Notes under the pieces: generated by a model
What the model was told of the DNA's origin: nothing
What the model saw: only the letters and a program-made list of their open reading frames with translations
The model's database searches: none
Source: Planctomycetia bacterium
GTDB taxonomy: Bacteria; Planctomycetota; Phycisphaerae; Phycisphaerales; SM1A02
NCBI GenBank assembly: GCA_005790605.1
Contig: SXUI01000062.1
Span: forward strand, 1-41,286
Direction: 5' to 3'
Length of the DNA: 41,286 nt
Part shown: positions 23,430-37,461 of the stretch, piece by piece
How the letters are laid out: each line of letters starts with the position of its first letter
Position numbering within the stretch: the stretch's first letter is position 1
Translations under genes and position numbers: made by a program

Positions 23430-24526
23430 CGCCGCCCATCATCGGAATTCTCGGCGGCGGTCAGCTCGGGCGAATGCTCGCGCTCGCCGGCATTCCGTTG
23501 GGATTCCGCTTCCGGTTCTTCGACCCATCGCCAGACGCTTGCGCGCAGGATGTTGGCGCACTGACTGTCGGAAGTTGGTCCGACTGCGACGCGCTTCGAC
23601 AATTCGCGCGCGGTTGCGATGCCATCACCTTCGAGTTTGAAAATGTGCCGACGGCAAGCCTTGATGCGATCGAGAGCATCGCACGAGTCCAACCGCCGCG
23701 CATCGCGCTCGCGACAACCTCGGACCGCATCCACGAGAAACAGTTCTTTCAGCGATGCGGCCTCGCGGTGCAGCCGTTTGCCGATGTGCAAACCGCTGCG
23801 GATCTCGCGCTCGCCGTCGCAACGGTGGGCACGCCTGGCGTGCTCAAGACTCGGAACCTGGGATACGACGGCAAAGGTCAACGCGTCATCCGCGACGCGA
23901 GACTCGCGAGCGAAGCATGGTCAGCTCTCGGTTCCACTCCGTGCATTTACGAAGCGTTCGTCCCGTTCGATCGCGAAGTCAGTGTGGTCGCTGTTCGCTC
24001 CAAAGTGCACGGAACGGTGCAGTTTGACGCCTATCCACTCGGCGAAAATGTGCACCGTGATGGGATCCTCCACACGACTGTCGTTCCGGCTCGCATCGAT
24101 GCTGCGCTGGTCTCCGCAGCGCGTGCACACGCACGAGTGATCGCGGATGAACTTGACTACATCGGGGTGTTCGCGATCGAGTTCTTCGTCGCCGATGGCG
24201 TCCTCATTGCCAACGAGATGGCGCCCCGTGTCCACAACTCTGGACACTGGACGATGGATGGGGCGGTCACAAGCCAGTTTGAAAATCACATCCGCGCGAT
24301 CTGTGGGCTTCCCCTTGGCTCCTGTGCGGCGCGCGGCGCGTGGAACGCAATGCTCAACATCGTCGGGCGCGTACCAACGCTTGACGACGCGCTCACAAAC
24401 TCAGAATCGAAGCTGCACATGTATGGGAAAGCAGCACGCGCCGGTCGAAAGACTGGGCACATCAACTTGCACGCGTCGAGTGAGTCTGAGTTGCGCGCTG
24501 CACTCACGCGCGCCGAGGGCGTCTAG
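23426..24526 (+). CDS. purK: 5-(carboxyamino)imidazole ribonucleotide synthase
   Basis: ATP-grasp enzyme that carboxylates AIR with bicarbonate to N5-CAIR, the substrate of PurE. Its 366 residues are typical. N-terminal [16 protein letters not shown] (preATP-grasp fold), [36 protein letters not shown] (ATP-binding glycine loop), [14 protein letters not shown], and the Mg-binding end of the grasp, [18 protein letters not shown], are all present. The C-terminal domain contains [18 protein letters not shown]. It starts with ATGA overlap to purE. The TAG stop is shared with that of the convergent methyltransferase gene through one CTAG (24523-24526). Confidence 0.97.
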
Positions 24527-25248
24527 CACCTCGACTTCGCGATCGCGACGGCCTTGGCGGACAGATCGAATCCGATGGCGTTCCGTTTGAGGCGGCGAGC
24601 CGCAACGAGTGTTGTTCCCGATCCGCAGAATGGATCAAGCACCGTTCCTCCGTCTGGACAGCATGCGGCGACGAGAAACTCCAGGAGCGCAAGTGGTTTC
24701 TGTGTCGGCCACCCGCACCGTTCCTTCGACATGTTGTTGATCGAAGGAATGTCGAGCACATCCGTGGCCTTCTTGGTTTGACCCGCCATGCGTCGGCTCA
24801 GCGCGGGCACTCGCGGGGCCGTGAAGTGCCACGCGTCACCTCGTGCGTACCAGAGCAAGTCATCGTGTTTCCGCGCGAAACAGCGCGGACTTGAACCACC
24901 GAGACCGTACTGCCAGATGAGGTGATTCAAGAACCGCTCGCTCCCGAACACCTCGTCAAGCAGCATGCGCACGCGATGGGAGGAACGCCAATCGCAATGA
25001 ACGAGCACGCTTCCCCTCGGTTTCAAGACTCGACGCGCCTGCGCGAGGCGCGGACGAAGAAACTCGAGGTAGCCATCAAGCCCCGTAAAGACATCGCGGA
25101 ACGCGCCGCGCTTGCTTCGATGTGTTCGCCCCGTGTTGAAGGGCGGATCGAGATAGATGAAATCAACACTCTCCGATGCGACCGATGGGAACAGGTCTAT
25201 GCAGTCGCCGCAGCGCACATCGAATTGCGTTCGCTTAGCGACTGCCAT
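24523..25248 (-). CDS. Orphan DNA methyltransferase, beta-type order (DPPF ... DPFCGSGTT)
   Basis: A 241-residue SAM-dependent DNA amino-methyltransferase, most likely N6-adenine. Motif IV FIYLDPPFNTG (30-40) comes first, a target-recognition stretch occupies the middle, and motif I VLDPFCGSGTT (203-213) is near the C-terminus, preceded by WPTQKPLALLE. This order defines the beta group. The variant DPPF in place of DPPY is common in this group. No endonuclease gene is nearby. It starts 14 bp inside the end of the lipoprotein gene (25235-25687) and lies downstream of xerC, so all three may be one transcript. Its stop overlaps that of purK at CTAG. Target sequence unknown. Confidence 0.88.
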   Translation of the reverse strand: MAVAKRTQFDVRCGDCIDLFPSVASESVDFIYLDPPFNTGRTHRSKRGAFRDVFTGLDGYLEFLRPRLAQARRVLKPRGSVLVHCDWRSSHRVRMLLDEVFGSERFLNHLIWQYGLGGSSPRCFARKHDDLLWYARGDAWHFTAPRVPALSRRMAGQTKKATDVLDIPSINNMSKERCGWPTQKPLALLEFLVAACCPDGGTVLDPFCGSGTTLVAARRLKRNAIGFDLSAKAVAIAKSRC

Positions 25249-25711: not shown

Positions 25712-26698
25712 TCAACTGGCTTCTGCGCGAGGATGGGCCTTGTCGTAGGACTGCCGCATACGCGATTGTGCGAGATGCGTGTAGACCTGCGTGGATGAGA
25801 GGGACTGGTGACCCAACAATTCTTGCACTTGGCGCAGATCGGCGCCGTTCGAGAGCAAGTGCGTCGCGAAGCTGTGACGAATGGTGTGTGGGCTGATATC
25901 CGGATCGAGACCGACCTTCGTGAGGTACTTCGCGACCTTGCGGCGCACCGATCGACTCGACAGGCGCGAACCATGCTTGTTCACAAAGAGCGGCGCGACA
26001 TCTTCCGTTCGAATGCCAGCGACCCGCATTTCAGAGTCAAGCATGTCGAGATAGTGTCGGAGCGATCGCAATGCGGGAAGGCCAAGCGGAACGACGCGCT
26101 CGCGCCGCCCCTTGCCCTTGATCACGATGCACTCTTCCGTCTCGCGCAGATCACCGCGATTGATCGCGACGACTTCGCTGACGCGAATACCGGTGGAGTA
26201 AAGCGTCTCGAGAATCGCGCGGTCGCGCGCGCCGAGCACTTCACGATCGTCAGGCGCAGAGAGCAAGCGCTCCACTTCATCGACCGTGATAGCCTTGGGA
26301 AGTCTGCGCGCTTGCTTTGGAGTTCGGATGAGCGACATCGGATTCGATGCCACGATGCCCCGCTTCTCCATCCACTTGTGGAATGATCGAAGCGTTGCAA
26401 TCTTGCGTGCCATCGTTGCTGGCGAGTACTTCGCCTCGCTCAACTTCGCGAGGAACCCGCGCACGCGCTCCACATCGAGTTGCAGAATCATGCCGGTGAG
26501 CGTCTTGGCATCAACGGTCGAGCGCTCAAACGCGAGCTTCTCTGCCGCGAGATTGAATTGAACGCCTGTCGACTCTGACAGGTGCTCGATGAACTGTCGA
26601 AGATCGAGGCCGTAGCAGCGCGAGGTGTAGGGGCTGAAATGGCGCTCGTCAGTCAGGTAACTGAGGAAGCGATCGACGATCGGGAGATTCTCGTTCAT
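25712..26698 (-). CDS. xerC: Tyrosine recombinase, XerC/XerD type
   Basis: Site-specific recombinase expected to resolve chromosome dimers at dif. At 328 residues it is about 30 longer than typical XerC/D owing to an insert near 42-75 of the SAM-like core-binding domain. All catalytic residues are visible: Arg172 (STGIRVSEV), Lys196 (IKGKGRRERVVPL), His271 and Arg274 (SPHTIRHSFATHLL), His297 (LLGHQSLSSTQ) and the nucleophile Tyr306 (VYTH). The intact set, the lack of flanking repeats, and the surrounding housekeeping genes argue for the chromosomal enzyme and not a phage integrase. Whether it is the C or D partner cannot be decided here. ATG at 26698; likely first gene of an xerC-lipoprotein-methyltransferase transcript. 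Confidence 0.93.
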   Translation of the reverse strand: MNENLPIVDRFLSYLTDERHFSPYTSRCYGLDLRQFIEHLSESTGVQFNLAAEKLAFERSTVDAKTLTGMILQLDVERVRGFLAKLSEAKYSPATMARKIATLRSFHKWMEKRGIVASNPMSLIRTPKQARRLPKAITVDEVERLLSAPDDREVLGARDRAILETLYSTGIRVSEVVAINRGDLRETEECIVIKGKGRRERVVPLGLPALRSLRHYLDMLDSEMRVAGIRTEDVAPLFVNKHGSRLSSRSVRRKVAKYLTKVGLDPDISPHTIRHSFATHLLSNGADLRQVQELLGHQSLSSTQVYTHLAQSRMRQSYDKAHPRAEAS

Positions 26699-27018: not shown

Positions 27019-27789
27019 TTATTCCGGCTCTTCGCTCGCGACAACCGGGTTACAGCGGTACCCCTCCTGGTGGAGCAGGTCGCGGATCAACACGTAGGAG
27101 GCGAAGCGAGCGAACAGGTCCATGCGCGTCTCGTAGGCGCGGTTGCCGAAGGTTCCGTCTTGCTCAGTCCGCCCCACCGTGTAGATGTCGAGTTCGGCCA
27201 TGGTGTCGTGGCCGCGGGCGTCGAAGAGTCGGGATGCCTGCGACATTGCAACGCGTGTGCCGTTCGTATCCGATCCCACCGATTCACTCGTCGGCATGGT
27301 GAGCTCGCGAAGGTCGATCGGACGCCGATTGTCTTCAGGAGATCCCGAAATCAGTTCAACCGCGATGCCGAGGCGAAGCGGCTTGTACGGATCGTAGGTC
27401 GTCACGGTCCCGAGGACGAGTCCATCCGCTTGCAGTGTTCGCATCAGTGTGAATGCTTGCTGACGATCGAACACGCCAGTCATGCCGAGCGACTTCATCG
27501 CGGCAATTGTGCGATTCACGGGAAGGCATCGAAGGCCATCGACGCCCTCCACTTCTTCGACGAAGCGATCCGCGACTGCCGCACCATCCACAATGCTCAC
27601 ACCGGACTCATTCCCAAACGGAACCACCGCCCACACGCGCTCCTCCGGATACGGACTTTGCAAGATGACGGGACTCGAGAGTCGTGGCGCGGCACATCCG
27701 ACAGTCGCAAGCGACGCAACCAAGCACACCGCCGTCGTGGCGATGATGCGAAGAAGAGGATGGCGGAAGATGTTCGTAAGCGTTTGCAT
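27019..27789 (-). CDS. Lipoprotein with TolB N-domain/CsgG-like fold
   Basis: 256 residues from the ATG at 27789, chosen because GGAGG lies 8 nt upstream; earlier in-frame ATGs at 27831, 27825 and 27804 lack this. The N-terminus (MQTLTNIFRHPLLRIIATTA...) is a signal peptide ending ATVGCAAP, probably lipidated at the Cys. The mature part starts VWAVVPFGNESGVSIVDGAAVADRF..., a VVPFxNxSG strand followed by a helix, then LRCLPVNRTIAAMKSLGM, a DGLVLGTVTTYDPY strand and a strand of the form LGIAVELIS. This succession resembles the N-terminal domain of TolB and related CsgG/LpoB-type lipoproteins. That resemblance is by eye only. It follows the TolB-propeller lipoprotein gene by 56 bp on the same strand. 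Confidence 0.75.
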   Translation of the reverse strand: MQTLTNIFRHPLLRIIATTAVCLVASLATVGCAAPRLSSPVILQSPYPEERVWAVVPFGNESGVSIVDGAAVADRFVEEVEGVDGLRCLPVNRTIAAMKSLGMTGVFDRQQAFTLMRTLQADGLVLGTVTTYDPYKPLRLGIAVELISGSPEDNRRPIDLRELTMPTSESVGSDTNGTRVAMSQASRLFDARGHDTMAELDIYTVGRTEQDGTFGNRAYETRMDLFARFASYVLIRDLLHQEGYRCNPVVASEEPE

Positions 27790-27845
27790 TGCGTGCGCCT
27801 CCATGCGCGTGAGTTCCCAATCCATGGGCAATGTTCAATCGATCA

Positions 27846-29249
27846 TCAAGGTGTCGTTGGACTCATTGGATCAACTCCGAGTGGATCGACCGCGCCTGCG
27901 AGCGGATCCGCAAGTGCCGGCGCAAATCCAGTCGTCGGCGCGACCGTTGTTGGCGCAAGAAGTGTCGGAGCAGCAACAGGTCGCTGCGCCATTGCTGGCG
28001 GAGGACTCATGGGAGTCGTGCTTGGCGCGGCGACCGACCAGATGTTCTCCACGCCGCCTCGGTTGCTCACAAAATAGACCCGACCATCAACGCCCCACGC
28101 AGGCTGCATATTGCGAAAGCGGCTATTCGTGAGGCTCACGCGATTCGTGCCATCGCGATAGACCGTCCAAATGTCGGATTGCGCGGGCCATTCGCTGTTT
28201 CCATCGGGATTGACCACTGTGGTGAACACGATTTGTTCTCCATCGGGCGACCAATTGGGCTGCAGCACCGCGGCATTCTTCGCGCTCACAATCTCGGTCG
28301 GGTTCTTCCCTTCGCCTCGCTCAAGTTCGATGGTCCAAAGACCATACAGACGCGATCCTCGTTGGCGCGCGCGCTGAAAGAGGAGTCGATCCTGCGATGC
28401 TTCTGGCGACCAACGAGGCAAGAATCCTTCGCAGACGAAAGTACGCGCTGCTGGCGCGGAAGTGTCAACAATCCAAATCTCCCAAGTCTCCGTGCGACCA
28501 TTCTTCCGGCTGAATCCAAGGCGTCGGCTATCCGGAGCCCAAGTCGGCTGCACTTCGTCGTCCGCGTCGCTCGTCACCTGCGTCGGAGGACCACCATCCA
28601 CGCTCATCACGAAGATGTCCCAGTTTCCATTTCGGTTTGAGGCAAACGCAATCTGCTTTCCATCCGGGGAAGCCGAAGGCATCAGATCATCCGCTGGATC
28701 CGTTGTGAGTTGCGTCGTTGTTCGTCCGTCGATCGCCTTGCGATAGACATCGAAAGTTGGTCGGTGCTGCGTTGAAGCGTAGACGACGAACCGCCCCTGT
28801 CGCTCGACATCTGGGCTGTAGTCGCCGCCTTCGGTCGCGTAGGAAACTTGCGAGAGATTGCCGCCACCTTCGGAGAGGTTCGAGTCCTGCATGCGGCGCG
28901 TGTCGCCGTAAATCCCAACGGGCATGGTGGATCGGCGCTGTCCTGCAGCCGCAGGAGTTGAGCTTCCAGTTGCCGCAGCGGATGTTGGTGAACCAAACTC
29001 GACGGGTCGAGGAGTGGGCGCGTTTCCATTGGGGGTTGCGCCCCCAACGGCATGATCTGCCGACACGAGCGCATCTCCTGCAGGGTCCGCGGCAGGAAGC
29101 GTCGGCCGCGCGGCTGCGCGCTTGGGGGCGCTGGTCGGTGCGCGTGGCGTCGAAGTCGACGAAAAATCAAACATCGAGCAACCAGAAACGGCGCCGATTG
29201 CGAGAATTGAGGTCAGAAACGAGATGGTTTGCGTCCGTGCGGTTTTCAT
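27846..29249 (-). CDS. TolB-like WD40/PD40 beta-propeller lipoprotein
   Basis: 467 residues from the ATG at 29249, which has GGAG 8 nt upstream and gives MKTARTQTISFLTS. Signal peptide with a good lipobox (AVSGC, Cys ~24). After a Ser/Thr/Pro/Ala-rich linker (~30-125) come six PD40 blades, each with a P(x)WSPDG-like corner: DYSPDVERQG, MPSASPDGKQIAFASN, QPTWAPDSRRLGFSR, PRWSPEASQDRLLF, QPNWSPDGEQIVFTT and QPAWGVDGRVYFVSN. This is the propeller found in the C-terminal half of TolB, which works with Pal and TolA in envelope integrity and division. The TolB N-domain is absent; a separate lipoprotein resembling it is encoded next. A Pro/Ala-rich low-complexity tail follows the last blade. No tolQ, tolR, tolA or pal gene is in the window. 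Confidence 0.85.
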   Translation of the reverse strand: MKTARTQTISFLTSILAIGAVSGCSMFDFSSTSTPRAPTSAPKRAAARPTLPAADPAGDALVSADHAVGGATPNGNAPTPRPVEFGSPTSAAATGSSTPAAAGQRRSTMPVGIYGDTRRMQDSNLSEGGGNLSQVSYATEGGDYSPDVERQGRFVVYASTQHRPTFDVYRKAIDGRTTTQLTTDPADDLMPSASPDGKQIAFASNRNGNWDIFVMSVDGGPPTQVTSDADDEVQPTWAPDSRRLGFSRKNGRTETWEIWIVDTSAPAARTFVCEGFLPRWSPEASQDRLLFQRARQRGSRLYGLWTIELERGEGKNPTEIVSAKNAAVLQPNWSPDGEQIVFTTVVNPDGNSEWPAQSDIWTVYRDGTNRVSLTNSRFRNMQPAWGVDGRVYFVSNRGGVENIWSVAAPSTTPMSPPPAMAQRPVAAPTLLAPTTVAPTTGFAPALADPLAGAVDPLGVDPMSPTTP

Positions 29250-29292
29250 AGCGAGCACTCCGTGCATCGGTCAGGCCACCGGACAGGATCAA

Positions 29293-29311
29293 TCGCCGTG
29301 CCAAGCGGCGA
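29293..29311. repeat. 6-bp hairpin in the TolB/tRNA intergenic region
   Basis: TCGCCG (29293-29298), loop TGCCAAG, CGGCGA (29306-29311). It lies in the 130-bp region between the divergent lipoprotein gene and the tRNA. Function unknown; chance is possible in GC-rich DNA. Confidence 0.25.
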
Positions 29312-29379: not shown

Positions 29380-29452
29380 GGTTGCGTAGCTCAGTTGGTA
29401 GAGCAAGCGGCTTTTAACCGCTAGGTCCTGGGTTCAAGTCCCAGCGCAATCA
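29380..29452 (+). tRNA. tRNA-Lys (anticodon UUU)
   Basis: A complete cloverleaf: acceptor GGTTGCG (29380-29386) with CGCAATC (29445-29451, one G-U pair), D arm GCTC/GAGC around AGTTGGTA, anticodon arm AGCGG-CTTTTAA-CCGCT with anticodon TTT (29413-29415), variable loop AGGTC, T arm CTGGG-TTCAAGT-CCCAG, and discriminator A at 29452. CCA is not encoded and must be added after transcription. A TATCAT -10-like box lies at 29361-29366. The SNF2 gene begins 41 bp downstream. The 3' end shows no duplicated copy elsewhere in the window, so it gives no sign of use as an integration site. Confidence 0.97.
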
Positions 29453-33881: not shown

Positions 33882-36800
33882 TCAATCGCCCTTCGCGCAT
33901 CGCTGCAAAAGATCATCAACCGCGGCGCGAAGTTGTGCGTCCTCGCGCTTCGATTCGGCTTCTGGAGTTTGCGCGACACGGATATCTGGTTCCGCGCCGT
34001 GCTCCTCCATATCGGTGCCGTTCATGAGATACCAGCCTCGAAACGGCATTCGAACCGTGGTCCCGTCCGCGAGCGAACTCGACCCCGTAGAAATCACGCC
34101 GCCGTAGGTCTGTTGTCCAACGAGCGATCCGCGACCGAGTGACTTGAAAGCGTGCGAGACGATCTCTGCATTCGAGAAACTCTTCTCGTTGCAGAGCATG
34201 TTCATCGGCATCGTGTAGCGCTGAATGAACAGTCGGTCCTGCGGGTAATGACCGAGGTCGGTCGGATCGCCGTCGCGCGGCATCGTGTAGGCATACGGAC
34301 GAACCATCACCGAGGCGAGGAATCGATCCGCGGTCCAGCCGCCACCGTTGTTGCGAACATCCACGATGAGTCCGCGCTTGCCGTGCGCGGCTGCATAGAG
34401 ATCGCGCTCGAAATCATCGAGCGACGGTTGATCCATGCCTTGCATGTGGATGTAGCCAAGCTTGCCGGCGGACCACTCGGAAACTAGTGCTGCCTTTTCT
34501 AGCGTGGCAGCACGGTAGCGTTGACGCCGCTCGTCCATGGAAGAGTCTGGAACGATGAGCGTGCGAAGTTCCTTGGTTGTTCCATCCGCGCTCGTGCGTT
34601 GGAACTGAACAATGCACTCCGCGCCGACCTTTCCAGCGAGAAGCAATTCAAGCGGCTTCGATGGATCCACTTTGTCCGCATCGATACTGGTGATCACATC
34701 GCCAACTCGGAGAGGAAGCAGCGCGCGAGCTGCGGCGGATTCCGGAAGAACATCGGTGACCTCGCGGCCCGTCTTCGCGGGCACGGTCCCCACGCCGAGT
34801 CGTCCCTGCGCTCGCCGATTCGCATTCGTAGGTTCGGGTGATCGCACGCCGAGGTGCGAGGCGTCAAGATGTCCGATGAAGCGATTGGCGACCCAGTCGA
34901 ACTCCTCATTGGTTCTCGCGCGCTGAGCGAGGACGCGATACTGCGCCGTCAACGCGGGCCAATCGAGACCCTTCATCGTGTGGTGATAGAAACACATCCC
35001 CATCAATCGCGAAACATCATCAAACTTCTGTCCGTTGAGCTCTCCCAAGTCCACTTCACTCACCGACGCAACATCCGCGGCTTTCGCTTCACCGGAAGGA
35101 AGCGCCATGACTTGCGCGCCTCCAGATCCAACGAGCGTCGCCTTATCTCCCTGCAATGAGAGACCAAGCACGCGCCCACTCGCGGCGAGCTTCTTGAGAT
35201 CGGTTCCATCGTACTTCACGAGTGAAAGCGAACCCTGACGCGGCGGTCCGTCACCAGGACTCGCCGAGGCCGCGGAATCTGCGGAGGAGAACAAGATCTT
35301 GTCGCCCGCGGGAAGCAGCTCAAGATTCCCTTCATTCCCTGGCATACTTGTCACTCGGCGCACGCGGCGATACGCGTCGTCGAGTTCGAGTTCGCTGAAG
35401 AGTGCGGCGGCCTCCGGCGTCACTGCCTTGGCGGAGTCTTGCTTACTCGCATCAACGGGCTTCCGCTTCTTGAGCGCTTCGTTGGCGTTCTTGAAGTACT
35501 CCTCAAGATCTTTCGGCGGCAAGCCCTCGAGGTTCTTGTCGAGAAACGCGACCCAGACATCGACTTCTTCGTTCGTTCGCTCGGAGAGAAATGCCATCAC
35601 CTTTCCGTCCGCGGAAAATCTCGGTCGATAGTCGCTATCCGGATGCTGTGTGACATTAATCGCGGCACCACTGCCATCCGCGGCGATAAACCAAATGTCC
35701 TTGTTGAAGTCCTGATCATCCTCAGCAAAGGCGATGAACGACCCATCGGGGCTCCATGTGTAGTCCAATTCTTGGTCGAAGCCCGCCCGCAAGATCTTGA
35801 CTTCCTTCGTCGCAATGTCGAGAACAGCGAGATCACCAAGGTTCCGCGTGAAGGCAATGCGCTTGCCATCTGGAGATGGCATTGGCATCGTGTCGTGGTC
35901 GGCACTCCCAACGATCGGTTGTACATCAAACCGAATCGCGTCCGCCCAGCGCGACGAGTCGTACTTCGGGTTCTTCTTTGCTTCGTCGCTCTTTTCCTCT
36001 TTCTTCTCGCCTTGCGCGACTGGCTTTGTCGCCTCTGCGACGGGCGCCTGCGTGGGTGCTTCCTTCGCGGGCTCAGCCGCTTGGGCGGCGTCTGCCTTGG
36101 CGGGCTCTGCTTGAGTTTCTTCGGGCTTGCTTGGCTTCACTGGTGCGACGGCGGCATCAATCTCCTTCTTCAAGTCCGCACGCGTCTCCGCCACAGTCGC
36201 ACCGAAAATCGAATAGGTGCCATCAGAGTCACTCACGAAGTAAAGCGTCAATCCGTCAGCACTCCACGCAATGTCGCGCTCACGGAACTCGCCCTCGGTG
36301 ACGCGGTGCGTTGGGCTCTTCTCTGCAGTAGCGCGAACGAACACATCGCCGCCGGCGACAACTGCGAGCGCGAGTCCATCGGGCGACAGCGCTGCCTCAG
36401 TCACTTCCTTACCAATGGCTCGAAACTCGCGATTTCGTAGTGCGTCATCCGGCGCAGTGAACGCGAGTTGAACTGGTTTCGCAGTTGGCGACTTGAGTTC
36501 GAGTGAGTAGAGATGGTCCATCACCGCAAAGACCGCAACCCTGCCGCTCGCGTCGGTCGTCAATGCGTTCACGTCGGTTCCATTGAACTCGGTAAGTCGC
36601 ACGGCGTTCGCGTCGGGGCCCGCGAGCGTCATTCGGAACAGATTCATCGTGCCAGCAAATGGTGCTTGGCCTCGATCCGAGACAAACAACAACTCATCGT
36701 CGCCAATCCATCGAGGGAATCCATCATTTCCGTCATAGGTCGAAACTTGACGAAACGCGTCGCCCGCCGAAGTCCACAACCAGAGATCCCGATTGTCGGG

Positions 36801-37370
36801 CCCGTTGTACCCACGGCGGGTCCACGCACTTCCACCTCGCTCGAACACGACGCGCGCACCTGACGGCGACGGCACCACCGCACTGCCGAATGCGTCGTGC
36901 ACTCGCTCGAGCGCCCCGCCGGTTAAAGGGACCGCATACGGACGAGGGGAACGGTAGAAATCCCCTTCAACGCTCGCGTCGACAAATGCACACAGTTCGC
37001 CCTGCAGGATGCCGACGCTCGTCAGCGTCAGCGACACATCACCGAAGGTAAGTTGCGTGAGATCGCTCCCATCCGTTCGCATGGACCAGAGATTTCGCGC
37101 GCCATCGCGCTCGCTCTCAAAGACGATGCGCGCACCATCAGGCGTCCACGCTGAACGCAGGTCGTTCTCCGCGTCGCTCGTCAACCGAACCGCGCCTCCA
37201 CCCTCAACTGGAGCGCGCCAAAGATCCCCACGCCAACTGAAGGTGAGGGTCGTTCCGTCCGGCGAAAGGGCGGGGTATCGCGGAAGATCGACATCTGCGG
37301 CAAAGAGCGCACTCGAAACGAGAAGCAGGGATCCGGAAGCGAAGATGCACGAAGAGTCGGTGAGTCGCAT
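33882..37370 (-). CDS. Tricorn-like serine protease, exported (family S41)
   Basis: 1162 residues from the ATG at 37370 (MRLTDSSC), which gives a clean signal peptide ending SALFAAD; the frame opens seven residues earlier. Layout: PD40 propeller blades (~30-400; ALSPDGTTLTFSW, SAWTPDGARIVFES), a charged Ala/Pro/Glu/Lys-rich linker (~405-470), a second propeller (~490-770; MPMPSPDGKRIAFTR, TWSPDGSFIAFAE), the helical C1 domain, a PDZ domain (~855-935) and the S41 core. The tricorn catalytic residues can be placed: Ser838-His839 (DASHLGV), nucleophile Ser1066 (KSFSNAE) and Glu1122/1123 (TDMEEHGAEPD). The residue after the nucleophile is Asn1067; it is Asp in the archaeal enzyme. It probably degrades peptides in the periplasm. 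It converges on the SWIM gene. Confidence 0.92.
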   Translation of the reverse strand: MRLTDSSCIFASGSLLLVSSALFAADVDLPRYPALSPDGTTLTFSWRGDLWRAPVEGGGAVRLTSDAENDLRSAWTPDGARIVFESERDGARNLWSMRTDGSDLTQLTFGDVSLTLTSVGILQGELCAFVDASVEGDFYRSPRPYAVPLTGGALERVHDAFGSAVVPSPSGARVVFERGGSAWTRRGYNGPDNRDLWLWTSAGDAFRQVSTYDGNDGFPRWIGDDELLFVSDRGQAPFAGTMNLFRMTLAGPDANAVRLTEFNGTDVNALTTDASGRVAVFAVMDHLYSLELKSPTAKPVQLAFTAPDDALRNREFRAIGKEVTEAALSPDGLALAVVAGGDVFVRATAEKSPTHRVTEGEFRERDIAWSADGLTLYFVSDSDGTYSIFGATVAETRADLKKEIDAAVAPVKPSKPEETQAEPAKADAAQAAEPAKEAPTQAPVAEATKPVAQGEKKEEKSDEAKKNPKYDSSRWADAIRFDVQPIVGSADHDTMPMPSPDGKRIAFTRNLGDLAVLDIATKEVKILRAGFDQELDYTWSPDGSFIAFAEDDQDFNKDIWFIAADGSGAAINVTQHPDSDYRPRFSADGKVMAFLSERTNEEVDVWVAFLDKNLEGLPPKDLEEYFKNANEALKKRKPVDASKQDSAKAVTPEAAALFSELELDDAYRRVRRVTSMPGNEGNLELLPAGDKILFSSADSAASASPGDGPPRQGSLSLVKYDGTDLKKLAASGRVLGLSLQGDKATLVGSGGAQVMALPSGEAKAADVASVSEVDLGELNGQKFDDVSRLMGMCFYHHTMKGLDWPALTAQYRVLAQRARTNEEFDWVANRFIGHLDASHLGVRSPEPTNANRRAQGRLGVGTVPAKTGREVTDVLPESAAARALLPLRVGDVITSIDADKVDPSKPLELLLAGKVGAECIVQFQRTSADGTTKELRTLIVPDSSMDERRQRYRAATLEKAALVSEWSAGKLGYIHMQGMDQPSLDDFERDLYAAAHGKRGLIVDVRNNGGGWTADRFLASVMVRPYAYTMPRDGDPTDLGHYPQDRLFIQRYTMPMNMLCNEKSFSNAEIVSHAFKSLGRGSLVGQQTYGGVISTGSSSLADGTTVRMPFRGWYLMNGTDMEEHGAEPDIRVAQTPEAESKREDAQLRAAVDDLLQRCAKGD

Positions 37371-37461
37371 GGAGTGCGAATCGTACGGCAATCGCCTTAT
37401 TTACCCACCCGGGCGCGGAACCACACAAGTGGATGGCTCGGATGGTTTGGGATGGCATGAC

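Follow-up and report, generated by a model that had tools for sequence, protein, structure and literature searches.

TolB is a soluble, non-lipidated periplasmic protein in which an alpha/beta domain (TolB_N) is fused to a six-bladed propeller. Its origin is called unresolved in PMC12204202, which also describes OMP-TolB-like proteins and PorE, a CpoB-TolB-Pal fusion. The Tol-Pal set of the Planctomycetota is called largely reduced in PMC8871954. Lipoproteins whose alpha/beta domain shares this general fold are found in the CsgG/PelC/GNA1162 superfamily (PF03783 and relatives) and in LpoB, the activator of PBP1b. Little is known about how the Planctomycetota link peptidoglycan and division to their outer membrane, and for this question the pair of genes described here, A and B, is a concrete candidate. 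A search of the open-access literature found neither a split TolB nor the A/B pair described.

The pair is encoded by contig C50 of the 3.03-Mb, 99% complete genome of a freshwater Planctomycetota bacterium. The 41,286 nucleotides of this contig that were analyzed are referred to as the window. The following features are located in the window:

29289-29303, minus strand: sigma-54-like -24/-12 candidate upstream of B with one mismatch, alone not above chance in the window
29258-29261, minus strand: GGAG, possible Shine-Dalgarno sequence of B (sequence)
27846-29249, minus strand: B, TolB-type six-bladed PD40 propeller lipoprotein of 467 aa (sequence, profiles and model of a relative)
29178-29189, minus strand: lipobox VSGC of B with Cys24 (sequence)
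27798-27802, minus strand: GGAGG, possible Shine-Dalgarno sequence of A (sequence)
27019-27789, minus strand: A, lipoprotein of 256 aa with a predicted CsgG/PelC/TolB_N-type fold (sequence, model and profile-profile comparison)
27694-27705, minus strand: lipobox TVGC of A with Cys32 (sequence)
25712-26698, minus strand: XerC/XerD-type tyrosine recombinase, conserved downstream neighbor (profile and neighborhood counts)

The propeller gene comes first and A follows 56 bp downstream on the same strand. The reading frame of B starts with ATG at 29249 and its stop codon ends at 27846. The lipid-bearing Cys24 stands after ...AVSG and is separated from the propeller by a low-complexity stretch of about 90 residues. 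The mechanically derived frame of A opens with TTG at 27831, and the ATG at 27789 yields the gap of 56 bp (27790-27845); the lipid-bearing Cys32 stands after ...TVG. Thus, the two separate lipoprotein genes with their own Shine-Dalgarno sequences and lipoboxes, which an earlier sequence-only reading had proposed, were confirmed at these positions. Judged by a simple rule, the lipobox pattern is present in 33 of 37 B homologues and, after one pick was corrected by eye, in 38 of 40 A homologues. B is preceded by tRNA-Lys (29380-29452) and an SNF2 helicase on the opposite strand. The recombinase begins 320 bp after A and reached 322.2 bits with TIGR02224 (cut-off 335.15). Two further genes of the window, both on the minus strand, encode a tricorn-like protein of 1169 aa with PD40 repeats, a PDZ and an S41 peptidase domain (33882-37391) and a DNA N4/N6 methyltransferase (24523-25248; PF01555, 1.5e-45), for which no obvious restriction partner was noted.

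B is a TolB-type propeller by fold and by sequence. Pfam PD40 was matched in four stretches (E 5.6e-23). The NCBIfam TolB profile TIGR02800 gave 113.4 bits (E 1.2e-32), which is below its cut-off of 343.15; the match was confined to the propeller, and its best stretch covered profile positions 237-393 of 418. When the B profile was compared with PDB sequences, TolB led with E 6.8e-28, with designed Cake propellers mixed among the matches. Comparison of the B profile with E. coli TolB by hhalign resulted in 98.1% and E 9.3e-14. The propeller region in the model of a close relative contains 23 strands, which is about what six four-stranded blades need. A Foldseek search with this modelled propeller returned TolB in all of the first 17 rows (E 1.8e-16, rmsd 2.7 over 250 columns). 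Together with the lipobox these results bear out the lipidated six-blade propeller that had been suggested for this gene.

A is less easily assigned. At E<=10 the window protein had no match in Pfam or NCBIfam, and comparison of the A profile with PDB sequences gave chance rows only (best E 0.45). The structure of A was modelled from 39 sequences with a pLDDT of 81.8 and a pTM of 0.75. Foldseek found 36 rows at E<=0.001, CT253 among them, with PelC at the top (2.9e-6), followed by GNA1162 (3.9e-5), FlgT (2.1e-4), CsgG (2.5e-4), TolB (2.7e-4) and LpoB (3.7e-4). By VIA the Z scores were 11.9 for FlgT (rmsd 4.2, 143 aligned), 11.3 for PelC (2.5, 122), 11.1 for CsgG (5.0, 133), 10.3 for GNA1162 (6.2, 131), 9.5 for TolB (3.7, 124) and 8.9 for LpoB 4q6l (2.8, 117). 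In this model the scores of FlgT, PelC and CsgG are tied, and the predicted fold of A is that common to CsgG, PelC, FlgT, LpoB and the TolB N-domain. An unrelated fold, which would have spoken against the sequence-only reading, was not found.

The sequence comparisons were more selective. The A profile aligned with 13 planctomycete CsgG segments at a probability of 96.1% (E 3.6e-9, profile-profile), and this match includes the opening strand AVVPFGNESG and the DGLVLGTV strand. Against E. coli TolB only 8.5% was obtained, in the wrong place, in a test weakened by the use of TolB as a single sequence; the negative control, the A profile against the B profile, gave 0.4%. CsgG itself reached only 44.6% with E. 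coli TolB, so any kinship among the four is at most remote. Seven of the 39 A members matched Pfam CsgG (PF03783; best E 6.5e-4), the window protein not being one of them. Nine matched Pfam MerT (best E 0.015), which is surely spurious. TolB_N and LpoB are absent from the seven Pfam families matched by any of the 39 members at E<=1. By its sequence A is nearer to CsgG than to TolB, and TolB_N as the family of A was ruled out at this level: there was none in the genome, none in the 39 members and only the 8.5% with E. coli TolB. The opening of A had been likened to TolB-N and CsgG domains, with LpoB as a further candidate in the proposed profile search. This likeness holds for the predicted fold and, by profile-profile comparison, probably extends to the sequence of CsgG; for TolB_N and LpoB it is not supported by sequence.

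A homologues were found in 78 of 101 related genomes. With B counted at E<=1e-30, 75 of the 101 contain both proteins, three contain A only (G018, G037, G054), none contains B only and 23 contain neither (Fisher 8e-20, a statistic that ignores relatedness). The module is therefore dispensable in some lineages. In 37 of the first 40 regions B adjoins A on the same strand; the misses are L045, which lies at a contig edge, L064 and L067. Over two partly overlapping sets (L039-L157) the same arrangement was found in 108 of 119 loci. Five of the 11 misses have less than 100 bases upstream, and six have at least 6 kb and no B. Outside the order B stands beside A in 31 of 48 loci (13/20, 0/8 and 18/20), which were drawn mostly from the best matches of a phylum-wide search with the A profile. 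That search matched 156 of 392 genomes of the phylum, many of them weakly or partially. All sets together comprise 98 distinct A sequences with B beside them. A-like proteins with no B nearby are encoded by seven loci of four other families (L213, L214, L218, L221-L224) and by eight further loci; the A-like lipoproteins of L213, L214 and L222 carry a long mid-protein insertion. No plasmid copies of A were found. The two genes are inherited together in Phycisphaerales-type relatives and in many further families of the phylum. Since the pair recurs in many distant relatives it is a real envelope module and not an accident of one genome, and, judged from the distribution of its sequences, it is old.

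The relatives are metagenome-assembled genomes whose titles read Phycisphaerales, Phycisphaerae or Planctomycetota. Those closest to the window come from lakes (Baikal-deep and ZH, the latter presumably Zurich, which is a guess). Records titled Sandaracinus, Limnohabitans, Kuenenia and Leptolyngbya also carry the pair (L086, L089, L092, L094, L152). They group by similarity with the others and are probably misnamed MAGs. Left out were L053 and L062 from alignment A1 and L039, L058, L069 and L073 from alignment A2, where the lipobox rule failed, L039 being cut by the contig end. The recombinase follows A after a gap of 333 nt (median) in 68 of the 98 distinct pair loci; of these 98, 92 have at least 1.2 kb downstream. 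No strong conserved block was found in this gap across 23 loci. Small frames of about 85-110 codons were seen by eye between A and the recombinase in L050, L068 and L076, and that of L068 had no Pfam match; a frame of 115 aa next to A clusters in six loci.

Contact between the two proteins, which the sequence-only reading had raised as a possibility, was approached through a joined model. B and A stand in one frame in 32 loci, so that read-through of the stop codons gives a natural B-linker-A chain. Such a single chain was modelled for a same-genus relative (L040) from an alignment (A3) in which 32 rows were paired, 56 contained only B and 58 only A; eight of the 66 rows with A only had been left out. 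The model reached a pLDDT of 80.7 and a pTM of 0.67 over 650 residues, 126 of which were under pLDDT 50. By our own arithmetic with assumed errors, 461 ordered residues should give a pTM of about 0.63-0.72 if the domains are packed and of 0.43-0.48 if they are not. The observed value lies within the packed range, and the model thus favors packing over independent domains. This argument takes pTM as its single measure across a flexible linker, and the prediction by AlphaFold may have been influenced by known structures of TolB; within these limits, the model suggests that the two domains pack against each other. The proposed two-chain complex is supported by adjacency, by joint inheritance and by the pTM of the read-through model. 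We regard the chance as about even that the two proteins associate in a single complex of the envelope and form a TolB-like body of two chains that is anchored to the membrane. The formation of a complex is more certain than a TolB-like function. Against this reading count the predicted lipidation of both chains, which sets them apart from TolB, the closer sequence similarity of A to CsgG, the lack of ExbD or OmpA matches on the contig of the pair, and the relatives and loci in which the pair is missing or A stands without B. Altogether the sequence-only reading is partly supported, as a two-chain, order-swapped TolB-like module.

The main rival to this reading sees A as a true CsgG/PelC-type lipoprotein which forms an oligomeric ring at the outer membrane for export or secretion, with B as an accessory propeller, so that the likeness to TolB exists only in the parts. 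The profile-profile match to planctomycete CsgG, the Pfam CsgG members and the rank of the PelC dodecamer and the CsgG rings above TolB among the best folds all speak for it. However, A of the window itself has no CsgG match, and no CsgEF, Pel or secretion partner was recognized among the conserved neighbors, most of whose clusters carry no profile annotation. The loop of A that could accommodate a membrane hairpin is short and of low confidence, residues 134-146 of the mature protein being modelled under pLDDT 50. Moreover, B resembles TolB and shares the inheritance of A. A ring of this kind appears somewhat unlikely to us.

It is improbable that A and B are ordinary envelope lipoproteins which are merely co-transcribed and make no contact. 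The separate ribosome-binding sites and the B-A gap, which has a median of 96 nt in relatives, would agree with this, as would the two loci in which the genes are about 1.5 kb apart (L053/L112). A perfect sigma-54-like site, TGGCACN5TTGC, is moreover found between the genes in ten sister-lineage loci (L042, L083, L089-L092, L094-L097), of which L091, L095 and L096 contain additional tandem copies with one mismatch; in the window a one-mismatch version stands upstream of B instead of in the B-A gap. Against mere co-transcription stand the joint presence and absence of both genes, their adjacency far outside the order and the pTM of the joined model.

In many relatives the start of A shows a strikingly conserved element that is absent from the window, GGCAGGAYGCC-ATGACAAGT, which extends across the start codon. 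With at most one mismatch a single copy was present in each of 51 genomes among the 101 examined from the order, and the reversed control gave 0. Coordinates could be compared for 27 of the 51: 26 copies lie directly upstream of A and that of G077 just after B on another contig. Examples of the leader, consisting of a GGA-loop hairpin and the conserved element, are the following:

L050:3002-3073, plus strand: leader of A
L043:7361-7432, minus strand: leader of A

The hairpin upstream of the element showed two-sided changes in 6/6 pairs among 60 sequences. Its covariation score was 0.321, compared with 0.151 for shuffled and at most 0.129 for slid alignments, for a structure that was written after the sequences had been viewed and in which 77% of the helix cells pair; relatedness inflates such scores. 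RNAalifold gave no consensus structure or pairs in the leader alignment, and the search for known RNA families found tRNAs only, in nine loci. GGA in hairpin loops over the ribosome-binding site resembles CsrA sites, and the leader of A is possibly a CsrA-type site by this analogy. The presence of CsrA was useless as a test of the leader, 101/101 genomes being positive. That the pair belongs to motility, A being a FlgT-like lipoprotein of the flagellar ring that CsrA controls, is very improbable: FlgT comes first by Z, the relatives have GGA-hairpin leaders on A and the genome has a MotA/MotB-like pair, but the FlgT score is tied with those of PelC and CsgG, no flagellar gene was recognized beside the pair in clusters that are mostly unannotated, and CsrA, which occurs with or without the leader, discriminates nothing.

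For the TolB-like reading of the pair the remaining Tol-Pal genes are of interest. A normal fused TolB, whose presence in the same genome the sequence-only reading had asked about, was not detected: neither A nor B nor any other protein of the window genome matched TolB_N (PF04052) at E<=10. None of 151 genomes of the order contained TolB_N, and across the phylum weak matches came from 11 of 392 genomes (best 1.4e-6); E. coli, Caulobacter and a Bacteroides were matched among the 14 controls. In the regions of five of the 11 weak matches (L237-L241) the B profile found nothing at E<=1e-3, and these matches thus did not look like TolB. For tolQ, tolR and pal, which were to be sought elsewhere in the genome, low-scoring matches were found. 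Five ExbD matches are distributed over contigs C1, C14 and C57 and three OmpA matches over C45, C28 and C49, that on C49 reading as MotB beside MotA; none was found on the contig of the pair. These matches stay far below the cut-offs: the TolQ models gave 57.5 and 67.9 (cut-off 221), TolR at best 47.6 (cut-off 127.3) and Pal_lipo 33.1 and 43.5 for two OmpA lipoproteins (cut-off 125.35). Two clusters (G000:C14:21500-33000, L231, and G000:C1:36500-48000, L232) each contain a TolQ-like gene and two TolR-like genes. In that of C14 these are preceded by a gene with weak likeness to vWA (VWA_3 at 7.1e-4, under its cut-off), much like the vWA force transducers of Planctomycetes in PMC12204202.

If B and A act together in a TolB-like body, both chains would be lipid-anchored after export, probably to the outer membrane, and the CsgG-type domain of A would dock on the propeller of B. 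The resulting two-chain body would correspond to TolB with its domain order reversed and split. It may serve as an immobile scaffold, held at the membrane, for a partner linked to peptidoglycan or division, and could perform TolB-like functions while differing from the TolB of Proteobacteria, which is mobile in the periplasm. A broader proposal, which we consider rather unlikely, is that much of the Planctomycetota has not lost TolB but has it in the form of two lipoproteins, one a propeller and the other a docking domain of the CsgG type, which form a membrane-fixed TolB equivalent. If true, the pair would represent either a forerunner of the TolB fusion in other Gracilicutes or a second, independent union of these folds. 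A two-chain TolB-like pair bears on where TolB came from, and a split system could escape searches which require that a single protein contain both domains of TolB.

With TolB the pair shares the propeller with its six blades, an additional alpha/beta domain that has the general TolB_N fold and, judged by its signal sequences, the envelope location. It differs from TolB in its distribution over two chains with the propeller gene first, in the failure of TolB_N to match A, in the predicted lipidation of both chains and, in the window genome, in the lack of ExbD- or OmpA-type genes beside it. The CsgG/PelC/GNA1162 superfamily shares with A the lipoprotein state, the fold and the CsgG-aligning strands, whereas A of the window is below Pfam recognition and is permanently paired with a TolB-type propeller. 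LpoB is also a lipoprotein and has the same fold in its C-terminal domain (4q6l), but none of the 39 members matched Pfam LpoB, and A has an extra C-terminal helix and a propeller partner. According to PMC12204202, OMP-TolB-like and PorE likewise combine a TolB propeller with a Rossmann-like module outside the standard fused TolB, and PorE is in addition a lipoprotein; both are single-chain fusions, whereas A and B are a split pair.
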